Source: a virus
Reading direction: 5' to 3' (one strand)
IMG/VR virus record: IMGVR_UViG_3300047323_000145
Location: 1-41,630 of that record
DNA length: 41,630 nucleotides
The stretch's first letter is position 1. Every line of letters starts with the position of its first letter. The translations under genes were made by a program, and so were the position numbers. Positions 5,188 to 41,630 of this stretch are shown in pieces. The notes beneath the pieces are model-generated. The model made no database searches, was not told the origin of the DNA, and saw nothing but the letters and a program-made list of their open reading frames with translations.

Positions 5188-5310
5188 TAGTTGAATGATG
5201 ACGAATGACGAAATGACGTAGAGCTTAGATCACCTATACATAGTCTCTCTTTAAGCCCTTGTGGCGTTAACCGGGAACGTGACGTATTTCTGTCACTCGT
5301 CATCCGGGGC
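5188..5310. repeat. Duplicated iteron-like element, copy A
   Basis: The ATGACGA-type iterations at 5197-5218, then GATCACCTATACA and CTCTCTTTAAGCC, then GTGAC/GTCAC and TCGTCATC recur in the same order at 29248-29360. Identity is high in blocks and low between them. Both copies lead to a GGAAGT...GCGCTCTAG motif about 65 bp later. Confidence 0.75.
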
Positions 5311-5375: not shown

Positions 5376-5394
5376 GGAAGTCCTTGCGCTCTAG
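5376..5394 (+). promoter_or_regulatory. GGAAGT-TTGCGCTC motif, copy 1 (early-promoter-like)
   Basis: GGAAGTCCTTGCGCTCTAG. It is the only copy not directly before a protein gene; the next features are the tRNA genes, 127 bp downstream. Confidence 0.6.
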
Positions 5395-5520: not shown

Positions 5521-5595
5521 GCCCTCTTGGCTCAGTCTGGCTAGAGCGTCCGGTTGTCGTCCGGAAGAACACCGGTTCAAATCCGGTAGGGGGCG
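5521..5595 (+). tRNA. tRNA-Asp (GTC)
   Basis: Full cloverleaf: acceptor GCCCTCT with AGGGGGC (one G-T pair), D-arm GCTC/GAGC, anticodon stem TCCGG/CCGGA with loop TTGTCGT, T-arm ACCGG/CCGGT. The anticodon is at 5556-5558. Discriminator G fits Asp. CCA is not encoded. Confidence 0.93.
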
Positions 5596-5599
5596 CTTT

Positions 5600-5673
5600 G
5601 GATCGGTAGTTCAGTTGGTAGAACAGCGGACTCTTAATCCGTACTGTCGTAGGTTCAAGTCCTACCCGATCCA
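5600..5673 (+). tRNA. tRNA-Lys (CTT)
   Basis: Acceptor GGATCGG with CCGATCC, D-arm GTTC/GAAC, anticodon loop CTCTTAA giving CTT, T-arm GTAGG/CCTAC, discriminator A. It reads AAG, by far the dominant Lys codon in these genes. It lies 4 bp after tRNA-Asp. Confidence 0.93.
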
Positions 5674-5676
5674 CAT

Positions 5677-5748
5677 TGGTTAGTAGCTCAGTGGCAGAGC
5701 AGCCGGTTGTTACCCGGCAAGTCGTTGGTTCGAATCCAGCCTAACCAG
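5677..5748 (+). tRNA. tRNA-Asn (GTT)
   Basis: Acceptor TGGTTAG with CTAACCA, D-arm GCTC/GAGC, anticodon loop TTGTTAC giving GTT, T-arm GTTGG/CCAGC, discriminator G as expected for Asn. It is separated from tRNA-Lys by 3 bp. Confidence 0.92.
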
Positions 5749-5750
5749 CA

Positions 5751-5856
5751 GGTGCAGACAATAGGCCGTGACTGGCTGACGATATGCACCCTGGGTGAAC
5801 ACCGGCCCTAACCCCTTGGCTAGTCACCTATGGGACGGGAAGCTAGTAGCCCTTAA
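5751..5856 (+). other. Structured spacer between tRNA-Asn and tRNA-Leu
   Basis: This 106-bp spacer can fold two ways: GGTGCA (5751-5756) with TGCACC (5785-5790), or a longer 10-bp helix pairing GTGACTGGCT (5768-5777) with GGCTAGTCAC (5818-5827). No tRNA T-loop is present, so I do not call a tRNA. It may be an RNA-processing element or a decayed tRNA. Confidence 0.4.
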
Positions 5857-5934
5857 GCCCGCTTAGGCAAATGTGGTAAAGCCGCTTGACTTAGGATCAA
5901 GTGCATGGGGGTTCGAATCCCTCAGCGGGTACCA
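5857..5934 (+). tRNA. tRNA-Leu (TAG) without a long variable arm
   Basis: Acceptor GCCCGCT with AGCGGGT, a 3-bp D stem, anticodon stem CTTGA/TCAAG with loop CTTAGGA giving TAG, a variable region of only TGCAT, T-arm GGGGG/CCCTC, discriminator A and an encoded CCA. UAG reads CUA, a codon rare in Streptomyces but frequent in these phage genes. Leu tRNAs normally have a long variable arm; its absence is unusual. Confidence 0.8.
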
Positions 5935-5937
5935 GAG

Positions 5938-5989
5938 TCAGCGTGGACGGCATTGATTCCCTTCACCGGGTCAATGAACCGCACGCTGA
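5938..5989 (+). other. Hairpin spacer between tRNA-Leu and tRNA-Thr
   Basis: TCAGCGTG (5938-5945) pairs with CACGCTGA (5982-5989), enclosing CATTGA/TCAATG. No tRNA loops are visible. Confidence 0.5.
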
Positions 5990-5997
5990 TTCGATTT

Positions 5998-6070
5998 GCC
6001 CCTGTAGCTCAATTGGTAGAGCGTCCGTTTCGTAATCGGGAGGCTCGGGGTTCGATTCCTCGCAGGGGCC
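5998..6070 (+). tRNA. tRNA-Thr (CGT)
   Basis: Acceptor GCCCCTG with CAGGGGC, D-arm GCTC/GAGC, anticodon loop TTCGTAA giving CGT (codon ACG), T-arm CGGGG/CCTCG. The anticodon stem has a T-T mismatch next to the loop and the discriminator is C, both slightly unusual. Confidence 0.88.
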
Positions 6071-6074
6071 CTCA

Positions 6075-6109
6075 GGCAGGGATCAACGCGTTCGCCCGTC
6101 ACCCCTGCC
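6075..6109 (+). other. Hairpin spacer between tRNA-Thr and tRNA-Pro
   Basis: GGCAGGG (6075-6081) pairs with CCCTGCC (6103-6109). This is the third such hairpin in the array. Confidence 0.5.
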
Positions 6110-6113
6110 GCAT

Positions 6114-6189
6114 CTAGGTGTAGCTCAGTAGGTAGAGCGCGCGGTTAGGGACCGTGAGGCCGTAGGTTCGAGACCTACCACTTAGACCA
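6114..6189 (+). tRNA. tRNA-Pro (AGG)
   Basis: Acceptor CTAGGTG with CACTTAG, D-arm GCTC/GAGC, anticodon stem CGCGG/CCGTG with loop TTAGGGA giving AGG, T-arm GTAGG/CCTAC, discriminator A and encoded CCA. Anticodons starting with A are rare in bacteria outside Arg-ACG. A palindrome copy begins 2 bp later. Confidence 0.85.
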
Positions 6190-6190
6190 A

Positions 6191-6209
6191 CTACTGAATT
6201 CAGTAGCTG
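6191..6209 (+). repeat. Palindromic repeat copy 2
   Basis: CTACTGAATTCAGTAGCTG, one change from consensus. It sits between the tRNA-Pro CCA end and the 3' end of the leftward endonuclease gene. Confidence 0.85.
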
Positions 6210-6608
6210 CTACGCGAGCAGGATTGCGGCACGCTGTAGACGCTCAGGGTCGTATTTGAAGTGCCCTAGCGCGCGTGCACAAGCCTTGCAGACTACGCCT
6301 TTGATCTCGCCCGTCTGCTTGTCTGTGTAGACGCTGTTCGGGTCTTCCTCGCTGCCTTCTCTGTTGCAGATGTCGCAGGGGCTAGCACGCAGCTCTACGT
6401 ACTCCGGGACGGATAGGCCAAGCTTCTTAGCTGTCCCCTTGATCTTGTCATCCCGGTACGGGTTGGTACGGCCTGCTTGCCTTGCTCGCTGAGCGAGTGC
6501 CTTGCAGTCTTTGCACTGTGAGCCGTGCCCGTCGCTGCGGTTGGCGTCCTTGGCGAACGCGCTTAGGTCTTTGTCTTCCTTGCATGTGATGCATACCTTG
6601 TGTGCCAT
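6210..6608 (-). CDS. Endonuclease VII-like protein with a degenerate catalytic motif
   Basis: The product is 132 aa from ATG 6608. It has an N-terminal CITCKEDKDLSAFAKDANRSDG zinc-finger-like segment with QCKDCK, and a C-terminal domain CDICNREG ... TGEIKGVVCKACARALG ... DPERLQRAA, which matches the recombination endonuclease VII fold. Where active members have HVDHDH, this one has SVYTDK, so the metal-binding His/Asp residues are missing while the zinc cysteines are kept. It may be inactive as a nuclease or act only in DNA binding. It is on the opposite strand, flanked by palindromes, with a possible leaderless start (TACCCT 7 bp before the ATG). Confidence 0.8.
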   Translation of the reverse strand: MAHKVCITCKEDKDLSAFAKDANRSDGHGSQCKDCKALAQRARQAGRTNPYRDDKIKGTAKKLGLSVPEYVELRASPCDICNREGSEEDPNSVYTDKQTGEIKGVVCKACARALGHFKYDPERLQRAAILLA

Positions 6609-6632
6609 ACACACTAGGGTAGCATCTGTCAA

Positions 6633-6651
6633 CTACTGAATTCAGTAGCTG
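6633..6651 (+). repeat. Palindromic repeat copy 3
   Basis: CTACTGAATTCAGTAGCTG. Read leftward it is followed directly by TTGACA, a perfect -35, pointing into the endonuclease VII-like gene, so this copy probably controls that gene. Confidence 0.85.
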
Positions 6652-9508: not shown

Positions 9509-9511
9509 CAC

Positions 9512-9530
9512 CTACTGAATTCAGCAACTG
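9512..9530 (+). repeat. Palindromic repeat copy 4
   Basis: CTACTGAATTCAGCAACTG, with right-arm changes. It begins 3 bp after the TerL stop and 25 bp before the portal start. The ending AACTGAC-like form is shared by other late-region copies. Confidence 0.8.
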
Positions 9531-12573: not shown

Positions 12574-12579
12574 CCGCAC

Positions 12580-12598
12580 CTACTGAATTCAGTAGTTG
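12580..12598 (+). repeat. Palindromic repeat copy 5
   Basis: Perfect CTACTGAATTCAGTAGTTG between scaffold and capsid genes. It ends 26 bp before the capsid ATG. Confidence 0.85.
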
Positions 12599-15913: not shown

Positions 15914-15919
15914 CGCCAA

Positions 15920-15938
15920 CTACTGAATTCAGTAACTG
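15920..15938 (+). repeat. Palindromic repeat copy 6
   Basis: CTACTGAATTCAGTAACTG between the tail tube and the tail assembly chaperone genes, 25 bp before the next start. Confidence 0.85.
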
Positions 15939-22310: not shown

Positions 22311-22313
22311 CAG

Positions 22314-22332
22314 GTCCTGAATTCAGTAACTG
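22314..22332 (+). repeat. Palindromic repeat copy 7
   Basis: GTCCTGAATTCAGTAACTG. The left arm is altered. It lies 4 bp after the stop of the distal-tail gene and ends 18 bp before the next start. Confidence 0.75.
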
Positions 22333-25041: not shown

Positions 25042-25045
25042 CCAA

Positions 25046-25064
25046 CTACTGAATTCAGTATCTG
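25046..25064 (+). repeat. Palindromic repeat copy 8
   Basis: CTACTGAATTCAGTATCTG between the tail and lysis genes, just before a terminator. Confidence 0.85.
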
Positions 25065-26543: not shown

Positions 26544-27110
26544 TTGAAGTTCCCGCACATTGCCTTTATCGGCAAGAAGCGAACCGGTAAGGACACGGCT
26601 GCCGGTTACCTCGTCCGCCACGCTGCCTATACGCGGGTGGCTTTCGCTGACCCGCTCAAGGAAATGGCGCTTGGTATTGACCCGCTGATTCCTACGGCCT
26701 ATGACCGTGGATATCGGCTCTCGGTCCGGCTTTCCAAGTTGGTCCGGGACGTGGGATGGGAATACGCCAAGGACCATTACCCGGAAGTGCGGCGCATTCT
26801 CCAGACCTCTGGTCAGTCCGTGCGTCGGCATGACGAGGGGTTTTGGGTCGGCGTGGCTATGGACAAGATTGCCGTTGCCGATTCTTGGAACCTGCCGGTT
26901 GTGGTGACTGACTGCCGGTACCCGAACGAGGCCAAGGCGCTACAGGCGCGGGGCTTCCTTCTCGTCCGGCTTGCCCGTCCGGGGATTGAGTCCACGGACA
27001 CTCACGAGAGTGAGACGGCGCTTGATGACTTCCGCACTGACGCCACCCTCGTCAACGACGGAACCCCTGATGACCTCAGGGAACAGCTACGCGCGCTTGT
27101 GATGCGCTGA
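26544..27110 (+). CDS. Deoxynucleoside monophosphate kinase
   Basis: The product is 188 aa and phosphorylates dNMPs for phage DNA synthesis. The P-loop is IGKKRTGKDTA (G10, G15, K16, D17, T18), followed by VAFADPLKEMALGID, LLQTSGQ-like (ILQTSGQSVR), and VVTDCRYPNEAKAL, all typical of the family. TTG start with GGGAGG. It follows the lysis genes and precedes the candidate repressor, and works with ThyX and dCMP deaminase in nucleotide supply. Confidence 0.92.
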   Translation: MKFPHIAFIGKKRTGKDTAAGYLVRHAAYTRVAFADPLKEMALGIDPLIPTAYDRGYRLSVRLSKLVRDVGWEYAKDHYPEVRRILQTSGQSVRRHDEGFWVGVAMDKIAVADSWNLPVVVTDCRYPNEAKALQARGFLLVRLARPGIESTDTHESETALDDFRTDATLVNDGTPDDLREQLRALVMR

Positions 27111-27117
27111 CCAGTGA

Positions 27118-27150
27118 GCCCCCTTGGCCTACCCGGCTGAGGGGGCTTTC
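27118..27150 (+). terminator. Terminator after dNMP kinase
   Basis: GCCCCCT (27118-27124) pairs with AGGGGGC (27140-27146), followed by TTTC. TTGCGTTCGGGCAACTACTG follows, a string nearly repeated after the terminator at 31568. Confidence 0.85.
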
Positions 27151-27164
27151 TTGCGTTCGGGCAA

Positions 27165-27183
27165 CTACTGAATTCAGCATCTG
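27165..27183 (+). repeat. Palindromic repeat copy 9
   Basis: CTACTGAATTCAGCATCTG, ending 2 bp upstream of the -35 of the promoter for the 455-aa gene. Confidence 0.85.
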
Positions 27184-27185
27184 GC

Positions 27186-27214
27186 TTGCACGGCCCCCGG
27201 GGCGTGTGTACTGT
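27186..27214 (+). promoter_or_regulatory. Promoter for the 455-aa gene
   Basis: TTGCAC (27186-27191), 17 bp, TACTGT (27209-27214), then CTTCCTTGTCAGCA. The same layout and downstream sequence occur at 41013 and 41447. Confidence 0.85.
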
Positions 27215-27256
27215 CTTCCTTGTCAGCACGACGGAGCACGAACGAGGGGGCACCCC

Positions 27257-28624
27257 ATGGCAGCGATGACGGTTGAAGAGATCACGGCGCTTGGCTACAC
27301 GTACGGCAAGGCTAAGGCAACCACCAAGGTTGTCCACCCCAAGCGGAAGAACGCAGACAGCGCGGTGAGCATCTGCAACAAGAAGCTTGGCGCTGACGTG
27401 CTCCCGGGCGACGCGAACGAGACCAACATTTGCGTTGCCTGCCGGGTGGTTATCCAGAAGGGTGAAGAGCGGGGGCAGGAGTTGACTGAGGTGGACGCAA
27501 CCGGTATCGTGTCCAACCTCATGGAAGCTGCAAGCAAGGCAGTGACCAAGACCGAAGGGGACACCGTGGCCAAGGCGACCGACACCAAGGCTGAGGACAA
27601 GTACGCCGACACCATCGAGCAGATCAGCGCGAACATTGAGCGCGCCGGTTCGCTCGCCGAGGCGGAGAACGCTGAGGGGCTTGAGGAGCTGGGCAAGGAG
27701 ACTGAGGCTCTGATCTCTGGTCTCCCGATCCGTGGCAAGACCCCCGCCGGTGACAAGACGTGGGCAGCGTTCAAGCAGGAGTCTCGGAACGCGTTCCGTG
27801 AGGCTGCCACGGTCGCTGAGCCCAAGCCTTCCACGGAGGTTGTCACCCTTGAGACCACTGAGGACTACCGCAGCGTTGAGGGCATGGAAGACCTCATCAA
27901 CGAGGGCGCCAACGTCATCAGTGAGGGTGTCAAGCTTCACCTCAAGGCTTCTGAGACGGCGTACAACCTTGGTCGCAACCTGCTGAACGTCCGCCTCTCG
28001 CTCAAGGTCAAGGGTGCCCCTGACCTCAAGGCCAAGTCTCAGGCGTACCGGGACGCGTCCGGCCACCTCAAGGCTCAGGCAATCGTGCAGCTCCGTGAGT
28101 CGGGCGTTGACGAGTTCGACGCTCAGGAGGCGGCTGAGAAGCTGTGGAAGTCCATGAACAATCAGACGGGTGACGTGCTCGCTGACTACGCCAAGGAGCT
28201 TGACGGCCCTAAGCGTGAGGAGTGGGACAACCTCTTTGGTGAGGTTGCCAAGGCTCACCCCGCGCTGTCCCCGTCTGAGGCCGTGTCCGCGTACTACGGC
28301 ATTGACCTCGTCGGCCCCCGCGAAAAGGCCCGTCTCAAGGCCGCTGAGAAGCGAGAACTTGCCGCTAAGGCTGAGGCTGCCCTCAAGGCCGGGAACACGG
28401 ACGAGGCTGAGGAGCTTGAGGGCGAGATTGCCTCGCTTGAGGGCAAGGTTGAGCCCACTCCGGGCGAGAAGGCCAAGGCGGACGTCAAGAAGATCAAGAG
28501 CGGTACCAAGGCTCTCGCCGGTATCGACCCGGAGGAGCTTGAGGACGCGGACCGTAAGGCGGTCCGGGACGACATTCAGGCGCAGATTGACGCGCTGCGT
28601 GACCTCGTGACCAAGTACCTGTAG
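27257..28624 (+). CDS. Candidate phage repressor (455 aa, unknown family)
   Basis: A single-gene cassette: palindrome, promoter, gene, palindrome, terminator. The ATG at 27257 follows GAGGGGG. The N-terminal 70 residues carry His27, Cys40 and C59-x2-C62, a zinc-finger-like pattern. The rest is helical and highly charged (Ala/Glu/Lys), with HLKAQAIVQLRESGVDEFDAQ as a possible DNA-binding helix pair. An internal in-frame GTG at 27566 has an excellent ribosome site (AAGGGGA), predicting a 352-aa shorter form. phiC31's repressor gene, known to lie between late and early genes and to make nested in-frame proteins binding its inverted repeats, offers the closest parallel. The function is inferred from context; I cannot confirm homology. 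Confidence 0.5.
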   Translation: MAAMTVEEITALGYTYGKAKATTKVVHPKRKNADSAVSICNKKLGADVLPGDANETNICVACRVVIQKGEERGQELTEVDATGIVSNLMEAASKAVTKTEGDTVAKATDTKAEDKYADTIEQISANIERAGSLAEAENAEGLEELGKETEALISGLPIRGKTPAGDKTWAAFKQESRNAFREAATVAEPKPSTEVVTLETTEDYRSVEGMEDLINEGANVISEGVKLHLKASETAYNLGRNLLNVRLSLKVKGAPDLKAKSQAYRDASGHLKAQAIVQLRESGVDEFDAQEAAEKLWKSMNNQTGDVLADYAKELDGPKREEWDNLFGEVAKAHPALSPSEAVSAYYGIDLVGPREKARLKAAEKRELAAKAEAALKAGNTDEAEELEGEIASLEGKVEPTPGEKAKADVKKIKSGTKALAGIDPEELEDADRKAVRDDIQAQIDALRDLVTKYL

Positions 28625-28627
28625 CAG

Positions 28628-28646
28628 GTACTGAATTCAGGAGCTG
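28628..28646 (+). repeat. Palindromic repeat copy 10
   Basis: GTACTGAATTCAGGAGCTG, 4 bp after the stop of the 455-aa gene and 2 bp before the terminator stem, an unusual place for an operator. Confidence 0.8.
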
Positions 28647-28647
28647 A

Positions 28648-28686
28648 GAGACCCCCTACCAAGCCCCCAGCAAGGTAGGGGGTCTC
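28648..28686 (+). terminator. Perfect 13-bp stem terminator
   Basis: GAGACCCCCTACC pairs perfectly with GGTAGGGGGTCTC around a 13-nt loop. The T-tract is poor (TCTCCC). It ends the 455-aa gene transcript. Confidence 0.8.
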
Positions 28687-28728
28687 TCCCGTTGGTCCCA
28701 CTCTCTCTAGAGCACAAGGGGTGCCCGG

Positions 28729-29247: not shown

Positions 29248-29360
29248 TAGATGACGAATGACGAAATGACACTAAGTTCAGATCACCTATACAGACTCTC
29301 TCTTTAAGCCTTTGTGCGGGTAACCCGGAAGATGACGGAAAACCGTCAGTCGTCATCCTG
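29248..29360. repeat. Duplicated iteron-like element, copy B
   Basis: It starts ATGACGAATGACGAAATGAC and has GATCACCTATACA and CTCTCTTTAAGCC in the same order and spacing as copy A at 5188. It also has TGACGG-AAAA-CCGTCA, a hairpin. It stands just before the first replication/recombination gene, and may be an origin, a regulatory site or a small RNA. Confidence 0.7.
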
Positions 29361-29429: not shown

Positions 29430-30296
29430 ATGAGCGGTCAGGTTCGTACGGTCATGCGCGGGGGCTCGCGGTTCTACGTGGACGTAGAGACGCACGAGAA
29501 GGCGCCCGGCGTCACGTCGGTTATCGGGATGCTCCCTAAGCCGTTCCTTGCTCCGTGGAATGCGAAGCTTGCCGCTGAGCTTGCGGTTGACTCGTTCGAT
29601 TTCCTCAAGCAGATGACGGAGACGGCCGGTCGTGAGGCTGCCGTTGACTACATCAAGGGTGCCGCTCGCCGGTACACCAAGGGCCGCGCGGATATCGGGT
29701 CTGACGCGCATGACATGTTTGAGCGCATGATCCGGGGTGAGGGTCGGCTCACTGAGAAGAACGCTTCCGGTGAGTTCGTGGTGCGGGTTGCACCGGACCT
29801 TGAGCCGTACCGGCGTCATTTCGCTGAGTTCCTTGAGGTTGTACAGCCTGAGCTTGTCCGTGCTGAGGATGTGGCTTGGTCGGACACGCACAATTACGCC
29901 GGTTCGTTTGATGCCATCCTGCGTATCAAGCTGAACGAGGACGGTAAGCCGGACCCCCAGGGTGAGCCTGCCCTTGTTATGGCTGACTGGAAAACCAGTA
30001 AGAGCACGTACGCGGACGTTGCCCTACAGATGGCTGCCTATGCCCACGCTGACAGGATCATTGACCCTGAGGGCAACTCGTCGCCTATGCCTGCCGTTGA
30101 CGGCGCGTGCGTGCTGCATGTGACCCCGGAACAGTGGGCGCTTAAGCCGGTCCGCATTGATGACGAGGTCTTTGACTTCTTCCTCACGCTGCGGAAGGTA
30201 TTCAACTGGGACCGTGAGGTTTCCAAGACGGTCCTTGGGCGCGCTATCGCCAAGAGCAGTCGGGTTGTGACGGGCACGGAGCGTCGTGCTCGGTAG
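29430..30296 (+). CDS. RecB/Cas4-like exonuclease (PD-(D/E)XK)
   Basis: The product is 288 aa. The pattern GSDAHDMFE (His94), YAGSFDAIL (Asp161), MADWKTSK (Asp186-x-Lys188) and QMAAYAHA (Q200, Y204) is that of phage PD-(D/E)XK exonucleases in the RecB/lambda-exo-like group used for recombination or DNA processing during replication. The ATG at 29430 follows GAGAGGGG. It is the first gene of the replication segment. The adjacent 230-aa protein may be its partner. Confidence 0.85.
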   Translation: MSGQVRTVMRGGSRFYVDVETHEKAPGVTSVIGMLPKPFLAPWNAKLAAELAVDSFDFLKQMTETAGREAAVDYIKGAARRYTKGRADIGSDAHDMFERMIRGEGRLTEKNASGEFVVRVAPDLEPYRRHFAEFLEVVQPELVRAEDVAWSDTHNYAGSFDAILRIKLNEDGKPDPQGEPALVMADWKTSKSTYADVALQMAAYAHADRIIDPEGNSSPMPAVDGACVLHVTPEQWALKPVRIDDEVFDFFLTLRKVFNWDREVSKTVLGRAIAKSSRVVTGTERRAR

Positions 30297-30318: not shown

Positions 30319-30348
30319 GGCAAGCAGAGAGAGGAACGAGGGGGTCAG

Positions 30349-30367
30349 GTGCTGAATTCAGTATCTG
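30349..30367 (+). repeat. Palindromic repeat copy 11
   Basis: GTGCTGAATTCAGTATCTG, upstream of the 230-aa gene. Confidence 0.8.
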
Positions 30368-30415
30368 GCCCCTTCCGCAACTCAACGACTATTCAACGAC
30401 TAGGGGAGTTCCCAA

Positions 30416-31609: not shown

Positions 31610-31621
31610 GCGTCCGGGCAA

Positions 31622-31640
31622 CTACTGAATTCAGGAACTG
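31622..31640 (+). repeat. Palindromic repeat copy 12
   Basis: CTACTGAATTCAGGAACTG, with right-arm changes, directly before the AGGAG ribosome site of the 59-aa gene. Confidence 0.8.
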
Positions 31641-34695: not shown

Positions 34696-34724
34696 CAACA
34701 ACTGAACACACCCTGAGGGGTCAG

Positions 34725-34743
34725 CTACTGAATTCAGTAGTTG
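34725..34743 (+). repeat. Palindromic repeat copy 13
   Basis: Perfect CTACTGAATTCAGTAGTTG between primase-helicase and polymerase genes. It is followed by a small hairpin CCCCT/AGGGG (34745-34762) that covers the polymerase ribosome site. Confidence 0.85.
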
Positions 34744-34768
34744 GCCCCTCTTGCGTTAGGGGAGAGCT

Positions 34769-36697: not shown

Positions 36698-36712
36698 CAC
36701 CACGTGAGGCAG

Positions 36713-36731
36713 CTACTGAATTCAGTACGTG
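36713..36731 (+). repeat. Palindromic repeat copy 14
   Basis: CTACTGAATTCAGTACGTG. An outer GCAGC/GCTGC pair extends the dyad. Confidence 0.8.
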
Positions 36732-36791: not shown

Positions 36792-36807
36792 TTGCGTGAG
36801 CACTCAG

Positions 36808-36826
36808 CTACTGAATTCAGTACCTG
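36808..36826 (+). repeat. Palindromic repeat copy 15
   Basis: CTACTGAATTCAGTACCTG, 95 bp after copy 14, the closest spacing in the genome. Confidence 0.85.
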
Positions 36827-37206: not shown

Positions 37207-38025
37207 ATGATCAACCTGACCGCTCAGCAGATCGCGGACGCCAAGAACAAGGACCTTGACGCGATTACGGCAGTCATCAAGGAGACTGAGGACCGGGTTG
37301 GGCAGCTTGCCCGGCACTACGCCACGACGAGCGGTCGCACTGACCACACGCTCATGGAAGACCTCATGCAGACCGGCCGCATTGCGGTTTGGGAAGCGCT
37401 GGACCGGTTCCAGGGAACTGAGGTTGCGCAGTTCTTCACGTTCATTGACAAGACCCTTAAGGGTGTCCTGAGCGACGAGCGCAAGGAAGAGCAGCGAATC
37501 GGAGTTAGCCGGTCGGTTGCCGCTGACTTTGAAAAGGCGCTCCGCATTGCTGACGGAGACCCTTACCTTGCGGAATTCCTCGTCACGACGGCTGAGGTCA
37601 TGGGTAAGCGCAAGATGAGTGAGGACACGGCTTACGCCGCTCGCCTGTCTTGGATGGGCATTGAGTACCTTGACCGTCCGGTGACTACGGGACACAACGA
37701 CAAGCCCGCTGACTGCAAGTCGCTTGGCGAGACCATTGCTGACACGTTGGGTGTCCCTGAGGATCTGCTTGAGCCGTCCGACTACACGAGCGCTGAGCGC
37801 AAGAAGACCACTGACAAGGTTCACTACGTCCTCAAGAAGATGGGGGCGCAGCACCGGCACGTTCTGAGCGCGCTTACGGGTATCGCCCCGGTCGGCTACT
37901 ACGGCACTGAGAATGACGCTGAGCTTGCTGAGGAACTTGGGGTTCAGCAGTACCGGGTTACGTCGATTCGCTCGCGCGCTAAGGACCGTTTCGCTGAGCT
38001 GTGGATTGCAGCGTTCGGCGCGTGA
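37207..38025 (+). CDS. Sigma70-like RNA polymerase factor
   Basis: The product is 272 aa. Residues about 45-100 (HTLMEDLMQTGRIAVWEALDRF ... FFTFIDKTLKGVLSDERKEEQ) resemble sigma region 2. Residues about 205-268 (KMGAQHRHVLSALTG ... ELAEELGVQQYRVTSIRSRAKDRFAEL) carry a region 4 helix-turn-helix. The segment between is unusual and has no clear region 3. It probably directs host RNA polymerase to middle or late phage promoters. It overlaps the HNH gene by GTGA. A promoter-recognition role is inferred from domain pattern. Confidence 0.75.
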   Translation: MINLTAQQIADAKNKDLDAITAVIKETEDRVGQLARHYATTSGRTDHTLMEDLMQTGRIAVWEALDRFQGTEVAQFFTFIDKTLKGVLSDERKEEQRIGVSRSVAADFEKALRIADGDPYLAEFLVTTAEVMGKRKMSEDTAYAARLSWMGIEYLDRPVTTGHNDKPADCKSLGETIADTLGVPEDLLEPSDYTSAERKKTTDKVHYVLKKMGAQHRHVLSALTGIAPVGYYGTENDAELAEELGVQQYRVTSIRSRAKDRFAELWIAAFGA

Positions 38026-38989: not shown

Positions 38990-39013
38990 CGACCGACCAC
39001 CGGGGCGGGTCAA

Positions 39014-39032
39014 TTGCTGAATTCAGTAGTTG
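39014..39032 (+). repeat. Palindromic repeat copy 16
   Basis: TTGCTGAATTCAGTAGTTG upstream of thyX. A CCCC-TTGCAT-GGGG hairpin (39038-39051) follows and covers the ribosome site. Confidence 0.8.
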
Positions 39033-40367: not shown

Positions 40368-40373
40368 GATCAG

Positions 40374-40392
40374 CTACTGAATTCAGTACCTG
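40374..40392 (+). repeat. Palindromic repeat copy 17
   Basis: CTACTGAATTCAGTACCTG, 2 bp upstream of the -35 of the promoter for the 117-aa gene. Confidence 0.85.
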
Positions 40393-40850: not shown

Positions 40851-40991
40851 CCTGCGTTTGACCTGCTGCGATTACGTTGGGTCAGGAGGCCGGCGAGTTG
40901 GTTACCCTACGTGACCTTTTTTAGGGTCGGCTTCCACCGTGACTAAAGTTAGGGCATGAGTGTCAACCCTGTCAAGCCCGAAAAAAGGCAG
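40851..40991. promoter_or_regulatory. Spacer with promoter-like sequence TAAAGT
   Basis: It holds an ACCCTA/TAGGGT hairpin around CGTGACCTTTTT and TAAAGT 6 bp before an ATG at 40956. The ATG frame runs through palindrome 18 into the gene at 41082 without a stop, so a longer leaderless form is possible in principle. Confidence 0.35.
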
Positions 40992-41010
40992 GTACTGAAT
41001 TCAGTAGTTG
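40992..41010 (+). repeat. Palindromic repeat copy 18
   Basis: GTACTGAATTCAGTAGTTG, 2 bp before the -35 at 41013. Confidence 0.85.
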
Positions 41011-41012
41011 GC

Positions 41013-41041
41013 TTGCGCTCACGCGCGCGCACGCGTAGAGT
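41013..41041 (+). promoter_or_regulatory. Promoter for the 68-aa gene
   Basis: TTGCGC, 17 bp, TAGAGT, then TCTTCTTGTCAGCAGGAA. Layout identical to those at 27186 and 41447. Confidence 0.85.
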
Positions 41042-41418: not shown

Positions 41419-41425
41419 TGGGCAG

Positions 41426-41444
41426 GTACTGAATTCAGTAGTTG
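41426..41444 (+). repeat. Palindromic repeat copy 19
   Basis: GTACTGAATTCAGTAGTTG, 2 bp before the -35 at 41447. Confidence 0.85.
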
Positions 41445-41446
41445 GC

Positions 41447-41475
41447 TTGCGCGGGGGAGCGCACGCGTGTAGCGT
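41447..41475 (+). promoter_or_regulatory. Promoter for the gene at 12 (41516)
   Basis: TTGCGC (41447-41452), 17 bp, TAGCGT (41470-41475), then CTTCCTTGTCAGCAAGAA. It drives the gene whose complete copy begins at position 12. Confidence 0.85.
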
Positions 41476-41504: not shown

Positions 41505-41630
41505 GGAGACGGAAGATGTTCAGCATCAAGTACAACCGGACCACGAACCACATTGCCGGTATCGCTGAGCGCACCGTCTCTAACCAAAGCGCCGAGAACG
41601 CCAACCGGTACGGTGCGGTTGCCTACTACG
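41505..41630. repeat. Terminal redundancy, right copy
   Basis: Identical to 1-126; see the left copy. Confidence 0.9.
41516..41630 (+). CDS. Start of the gene at 12, cut by the window end
   Basis: The first 38 codons of the 183-aa gene, identical to those from position 12. It is the same gene reached again around the circle, not a paralogue. Confidence 0.9.
   Translation, partial: MFSIKYNRTTNHIAGIAERTVSNQSAENANRYGAVAYY

Follow-up and report, generated by a model that had tools for sequence, protein, structure and literature searches.

The locus examined here raises the question of which protein keeps this virus dormant, in which forms it is made, and through which DNA sites it acts. The window, that is, the whole stretch of 41,630 nucleotides analyzed, was found to be the virus record of a phiC31-like phage; a search of phage records at the DNA level with the window gave no match. 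The gene map was built here from open reading frames (ORFs) and family matches. Six gene products matched those of phiC31 (Lomovskayavirus C31, NC_001978), a classic Streptomyces phage, with their order kept: primase (61% identity), DNA polymerase (63%), exonuclease (61%), thymidylate synthase (64%), dCMP deaminase (75%), and dNMP kinase (51%). A serine integrase was also encoded. Six tRNA genes (Asp, Lys, Asn, Leu, Thr, Pro) were located at 5521-6189, between the integrase and packaging genes, compared with one annotated tRNA in phiC31. The record ends (1-126 and 41505-41630) were identical, a terminal redundancy expected for a circularly assembled genome.

A sequence-only reading of this DNA had singled out a 455-aa ORF between the late/lysis and replication genes as the likely repressor gene (hereafter c). 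The ORF was recovered from ATG 27257 to the stop at 28624, flanked by the dNMP kinase and exonuclease genes and transcribed rightwards, in the same order (dNMP kinase, c, exonuclease) as in phiC31. The protein matched Pfam PF25746 "Streptomyces phage repressor protein c" (E 1.2e-53, 183 bits, cut-off 27 bits), the only family above cut-off. It also matched phiC31 c (28% identity, tblastn 1e-11) and sequences of Rowa, TG1, Vash, and Dubu, several of them annotated repressors. As had been suspected, the 455-aa protein belongs by sequence to the phiC31 c repressor family, of which it is a divergent member. When the protein was checked against structural and replication proteins, no such homology was found, and among about 29 ORFs scanned no transcription regulator other than a sigma factor was detected, in line with the claim that no second gene looks like a repressor. 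The c gene diverged far faster than its neighbors, likewise in other relatives where c was measurable. For alignment-wide scans, clade alignments were used, the set of all family members being too divergent. A minus-strand ORF antisense to c (27002-28258) was set aside as the kind of ORF commonly found opposite GC-rich coding DNA. The features of the c locus were as follows (putative operators are given without strand).

26544-27110: dNMP kinase gene, 5' neighbor of c
27116-27148, plus strand: hairpin terminator between dNMP kinase and c (fold, z -3.3)
27162-27183: putative operator upstream of the c promoter
27186-27214, plus strand: c promoter candidate TTGCAC-17-TACTGT (read from sequence)
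27244-27250, plus strand: Shine-Dalgarno (SD) sequence GAGGGGG of the long form
27257-28624, plus strand: c repressor gene, long form, 455 aa, ATG start (ORF/start scan, PF25746, tblastn)
27335-27442, plus strand: Cys/His (zinc-like) module H27-C40-C59-x2-C62, putative metal binding (alignments)
27555-27561, plus strand: internal SD AAGGGGA (duplex -8.7 kcal/mol with anti-SD)
27566-28624, plus strand: nested short form, 352 aa, GTG start (aligned with the phiC31 384-aa start)
27593-28609, plus strand: conserved repressor core PF25746, residues 113-451 of 455 (hmmscan)
28625-28646: putative operator just after the c stop codon
28646-28688, plus strand: 15-bp perfect hairpin, terminator candidate after c (-34.7 kcal/mol, z -6.4)
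29430-30296: exonuclease gene, 3' of c with two small ORFs between

The in-frame GTG at 27566 (residue 104), preceded by AAGGGGA-CACC, had been proposed to start a second, 352-aa product lacking the Cys/His module. The open frames of 51 relatives were aligned, and 22 representatives of <80% identity were kept. At the column of this GTG, an ATG or GTG was present within four codons in 22/22 representatives (ATG in 20). When a start was defined as ATG/GTG within 4 codons plus an SD duplex of -6 kcal/mol or lower, all 22 had one here, compared with a mean of 7% and a maximum of 32% of the representatives elsewhere in the core. The start aligned with ATG 20171 of phiC31, which yields a 384-aa product, so that the suggested parallel with the nested in-frame proteins of phiC31 held. 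The smallest of three phiC31 c isoforms is reportedly 42 kDa, which the 384-aa product fits; these nested forms are said to have been first reported in 1991, and we know of no settled purpose for them. Shawty has a GTG at the aligned position, as in the window. The annotated repressors of AbbeyMikolon (Abbey, 358 aa) and Dubu (312 aa) begin exactly at this codon, and six prophages in Streptomyces genomes retained it. In one sub-clade (G004-G006) the start was shifted by a few codons to GAGGGGAACACGGAA-ATG, with ATG and SD retained. In the AF2 model, residue 104 fell in a stretch with pLDDT of about 30 ahead of the first core helix, and the internal start is thus predicted to lie in a disordered linker that joins the Cys/His module to the helical core. 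Judged from this alignment, the internal start is almost certainly real, and both starts would be used in cells. A promoter-like TTGACT-17-TATCGT (27482-27510; one found, 0.2 expected) was present inside c, 56 bp 5' of the internal start; it lies within conserved coding sequence and may be a coding chance.

The zinc-finger-like module noted earlier was also found, with the spacing H27-x12-C40-x18-C59-x2-C62, and C59 and C62 were invariant in a 12-sequence alignment. No Pfam family scored above cut-off for the isolated N-terminal modules. The window had no region equivalent to the first N-terminal module of phiC31; with one Cys module instead of two, two forms are predicted instead of three, and by alignment the long form of the window corresponds to the middle form of phiC31. 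Three isoforms are not a family-wide feature, since Dubu and Abbey, whose repressors entirely lack an N-terminal module, have one start. In TG1, phiC31, BT1, and RemusL, additional modules are stacked, and most of these have a start and SD of their own. RemusL and several prophages carry an N-terminal module different from the Cys/His module of the window, beginning MPKKGQRLPWRL or similar. This second type (MPKKGQRLPWRLxFVWVG...) was observed in the phages and prophages L130, L131, and L022 (RemusLoopin), where it replaces or adds to the Cys/His module.

The c gene had been described as having its own palindrome-linked promoter, a second palindrome, and a perfect terminator after it. The -35 and -10 boxes (TTGCAC, 27186-27191; TACTGT, 27209-27214) begin 2 nt past a 22-bp palindrome, and the whole unit recurs at 40987 and 41421 (repeat family D6); the promoter candidate scored below the consensus threshold of the promoter scan. 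Palindromes were confirmed on both sides of c (CTGAATTCAG at 27168 and 28631). The terminator was borne out in part: the 15-bp hairpin at 28646-28688 is perfect, but it has no U-tail and is absent from the list of the simple terminator scan. Early terminators without poly-U have reportedly been described in phiC31.

The two palindromes flanking c belong to an array. In total, 19 perfect copies of CTGAATTCAG were identified in the window (0.03 expected; no shuffle had 19), and all of them extend to one 22-bp palindrome, CAnnTnCTGAATTCAGnAnnTG, in which CA, T, a ten-base core, A, and TG were invariant in 19/19 copies. Eighteen copies are clearly intergenic, and the only overlap of the remaining one (40995) is with a small ORF, at its doubtful start. 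Many lie 3-9 nt after a stop codon, including late-region copies at 9509, 12577, 15917, 22311, and 25043. These palindromes are probably operators, with c linked to them by association. The copies other than those flanking c were the following (without strand unless given).

583-604: putative operator copy
6188-6209: putative operator copy beside the endonuclease VII gene
6630-6651: putative operator copy on the other side of the endonuclease VII gene
9509-9530: putative operator copy
12577-12598: putative operator copy
15917-15938: putative operator copy
22311-22332: putative operator copy
25043-25064: putative operator copy
30346-30367: putative operator copy
31619-31640: putative operator copy
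34722-34743: putative operator copy within an AGGGG...CCCCT hairpin
36710-36731: putative operator copy
36805-36826: putative operator copy
39011-39032: putative operator copy
40371-40392: putative operator copy
40989-41041, plus strand: putative operator (40989-41010) and promoter TTGCGC-17-TAGAGT, same unit as at c
41423-41475, plus strand: putative operator (41423-41444) and promoter TTGCGC-17-TAGCGT, same unit as at c

The copies at 6188 and 6630 bracket an endonuclease VII-like gene (6210-6632, minus strand). At two operators, the palindrome is enclosed in a longer inverted repeat with GC ends (34715-34753 and 30339-30375; e.g., AGGGG...CCCCT), so that such an operator may also function as a terminator hairpin.

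Close relatives with 70-94% identical repressors had the same array as the window. The putative operator sequence was ACTGAATTCAGT in the window and ACTCACGTGAGT in phiC31. Most of the phiC31 group carried the ACTCACGTGAGT array, with 11-16 exact copies in complete genomes. Further relatives had arrays of their own, namely ACTCTYRAGAGT (6, 13, and 14 exact copies in Heather, Sebastisaurus, and RemusLoopin, respectively), ACTCACSGTGAGT (Euratis, 8 exact copies, one base longer), CTCAATTGAG (Dubu and prophage pG323, 3 each), and CCTTGACGTTTAGG; arrays of ATCNCGTGAT and accacaCCTTGACGTTTAGGtgtggt were found in prophage pG065 and Shaeky, respectively. A clear operator array was looked for in Rowa and not found. 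The phiC31 operator sequence is thus shared neither by the window nor by these other members. The outer ACT or CT was kept in many half-sites, and the inner bases changed. A clade-specific palindrome was located 5' of c in most relatives; in the window clade, a copy lies beside the c promoter, and the ACTCACGTGAGT array of phiC31 has a copy at the same place. The array sequence shifted with the repressor clade, while the replication genes stayed 52-94% identical, which supports the palindrome as the cognate site of c.

How the core may read these sites was approached through its fold and sequence. The window 455-aa model had a pLDDT of 73 and the phiC31 core model (31 sequences) 86; in a PDB fold search with both models, the best E values were 0.6-0.8, with no match. 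A sequence profile search against PDB gave nothing below 0.05, and significant matches in a viral model library came from the repressor family alone. A conserved segment, AIRxLYxxxGIELPxYGRTELAR, resembles the DNA-binding element of Lsr2 (AIRxWAxxNGxxVxxRGR); hhalign scored 25.9 for the Lsr2 C-terminal domain, where 150 column shuffles reached at most 19.2, with a probability of 29% and a motif picked by eye. Lsr2 was not among the hmmscan families listed for repressor members. The residues after GRTE differed by operator class: ARxDRR with CACGTG, QRFNYR with CTYRAG, AREDA with CAATTG, and MRxNRR or MRxTRR with CACSGTG and the pG065 array. In the window clade, the GRTE segment is shortened and altered (GIDLVGPREKAR). 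As a lead from sequence comparison, the segment following GRTE may track operator specificity, a correlation that is confounded with phylogeny and from which some CACGTG members differ.

Three other explanations were weighed. In GC-rich DNA, valine is often encoded by GTG, and the ORF contains further internal GTG/TTG codons with SD-like sequences, so the long form alone might be made, with GTG 27566 an ordinary valine codon behind a chance SD. In agreement with this, synonymous sites around the internal start were not unusually conserved in the window clade, and support for the internal start is thus cross-family. That support, however, comprises a start and SD in 22/22 members below 80% identity (20 with ATG) against 7% elsewhere, six prophages that keep the start, and two members that have no other, making a lone long form improbable.

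The palindromes could also serve another phage protein, such as a packaging or replication initiator, with c acting elsewhere, as their spread over the genome including late genes might suggest. The copy next to the c promoter in the window clade, the clade-specific palindrome 5' of c in most relatives, the phiC31 ACTCACGTGAGT copy at the same place, and arrays that change with the repressor clade next to conserved replication genes render this more improbable still. Lastly, a highly helical, charged protein with no PDB fold match might be a structural or scaffolding-like coiled coil, or some other non-regulatory late or early protein. This is hardly credible given the curated repressor family match, the gene position, its own promoter and operator, and the strong terminator.

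We therefore regard it as highly likely that the locus encodes a phiC31-type c repressor made in two nested forms, which silences the prophage via CAnnTnCTGAATTCAGnAnnTG operators. From ATG 27257, a long form (455 aa) comprising the zinc-like module and core would be produced, and from GTG 27566 an independently translated short form (352 aa) comprising the core alone. The core would bind the 22-bp palindrome CAnnTnCTGAATTCAGnAnnTG, presumably as a dimer. Because of operator placement, autoregulation and road-block roles are suggested: the operator just 5' of its own -35 box would make c autoregulated, initiation would be blocked at a pair of identical units of operator and promoter close to the right end, and about 16 other intergenic copies, many after stop codons, would block passing RNA polymerase. 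Together, these sites would silence the prophage and give superinfection immunity. What was observed here is the family membership, the gene context, the conservation of the nested start, and the sequence and placement of the array; DNA binding and dimerization of c, its autoregulation, road-blocking, immunity, and initiation at both starts in cells are inferred.

For phiC31, PMC4557955 describes c, its dispersed sites, and its three isoforms, with reference to Smith and Owen (1991). The window shares with phiC31 the gene position, PF25746 core, nested in-frame start ahead of the core, N-terminal Cys module, and about 16-19 near-identical dispersed palindromes, one of them beside the c promoter. 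It differs in overall identity (28%), in the number of Cys modules (one versus two) and predicted forms (two versus three), in the internal start (GTG versus ATG), and in the operator core (GAATTC versus CACGTG). The repressors of the Streptomyces phages Shaeky, Rowa, Abbey, Dubu, Heather, and Euratis belong to the same Pfam family and locus and have the aligned internal (or only) start, whereas most of these groups have a candidate operator other than that of the window. In L5/R4-type phages, one repressor acts at 20-30 dispersed sites, operators and stoperators, with clade-specific motifs (PMC6550527, PMC10276819), and the L5 repressor at stoperators stops passing polymerase (PMC4557955, PMC6550527). 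By analogy, this dispersed-site mode of action resembles that proposed for c of the window. In contrast, R4 gp29 is an unrelated small repressor (153 codons, annotated "similar to L5 gp71"), while the window protein is large and helical; L5 sites are asymmetric, while the window site is a 22-bp palindrome. No homology to L5 gp71 was found, PF25746 being the sole match above cut-off.

Other potential regulatory elements were observed in the window. The phage sigma factor (37207-38025), a distant relative of phiC31 gp12 (35%), is a candidate partner of a repeated 16-nt element, GGAAGTSCTTGCGCTC, located on the plus strand in short intergenic gaps at 5376, 26492, 29371, 30300, 32206, and 37150 (exact in five copies, with two mismatches in the sixth). 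The element was also found in G006, and not in phiC31, TG1, or Shaeky; it is a candidate lineage-specific early promoter or leader. A 109-nt repeat (5197-5305 and 29250-29358, 81% identical) containing GATGACGAATGACGAAATGAC precedes the tRNA cluster and the exonuclease operon, respectively; the two copies are a possible pair of early promoters.

The c gene very probably keeps a phiC31-like virus of Streptomyces-type bacteria dormant. The family is known, but by sequence the operator specificity is new, and the window would hold a second version of the classic phage switch, probably independent of that of phiC31. Of greater interest is the picture across the family: all members examined retained the start ahead of the core, whereas N-terminal modules are gained, lost, or exchanged for another type. 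Tentatively, and with more doubt than confidence, the family may be viewed as a modular immunity system, with an orphan-fold core that has its own obligatory start and 0-3 interchangeable N-terminal cassettes (Cys/His or second type), usually with their own ribosome-binding site, tuning the switch or serving as its sensors. Whole arrays of up to about 20 sites would be rewritten with the core, changes in half-site spacing included, possibly via the helix following GRTE. About half a dozen repressor-operator pairings are predicted, which could offer potential orthogonal switches in actinomycetes and material for mutual-immunity comparisons.
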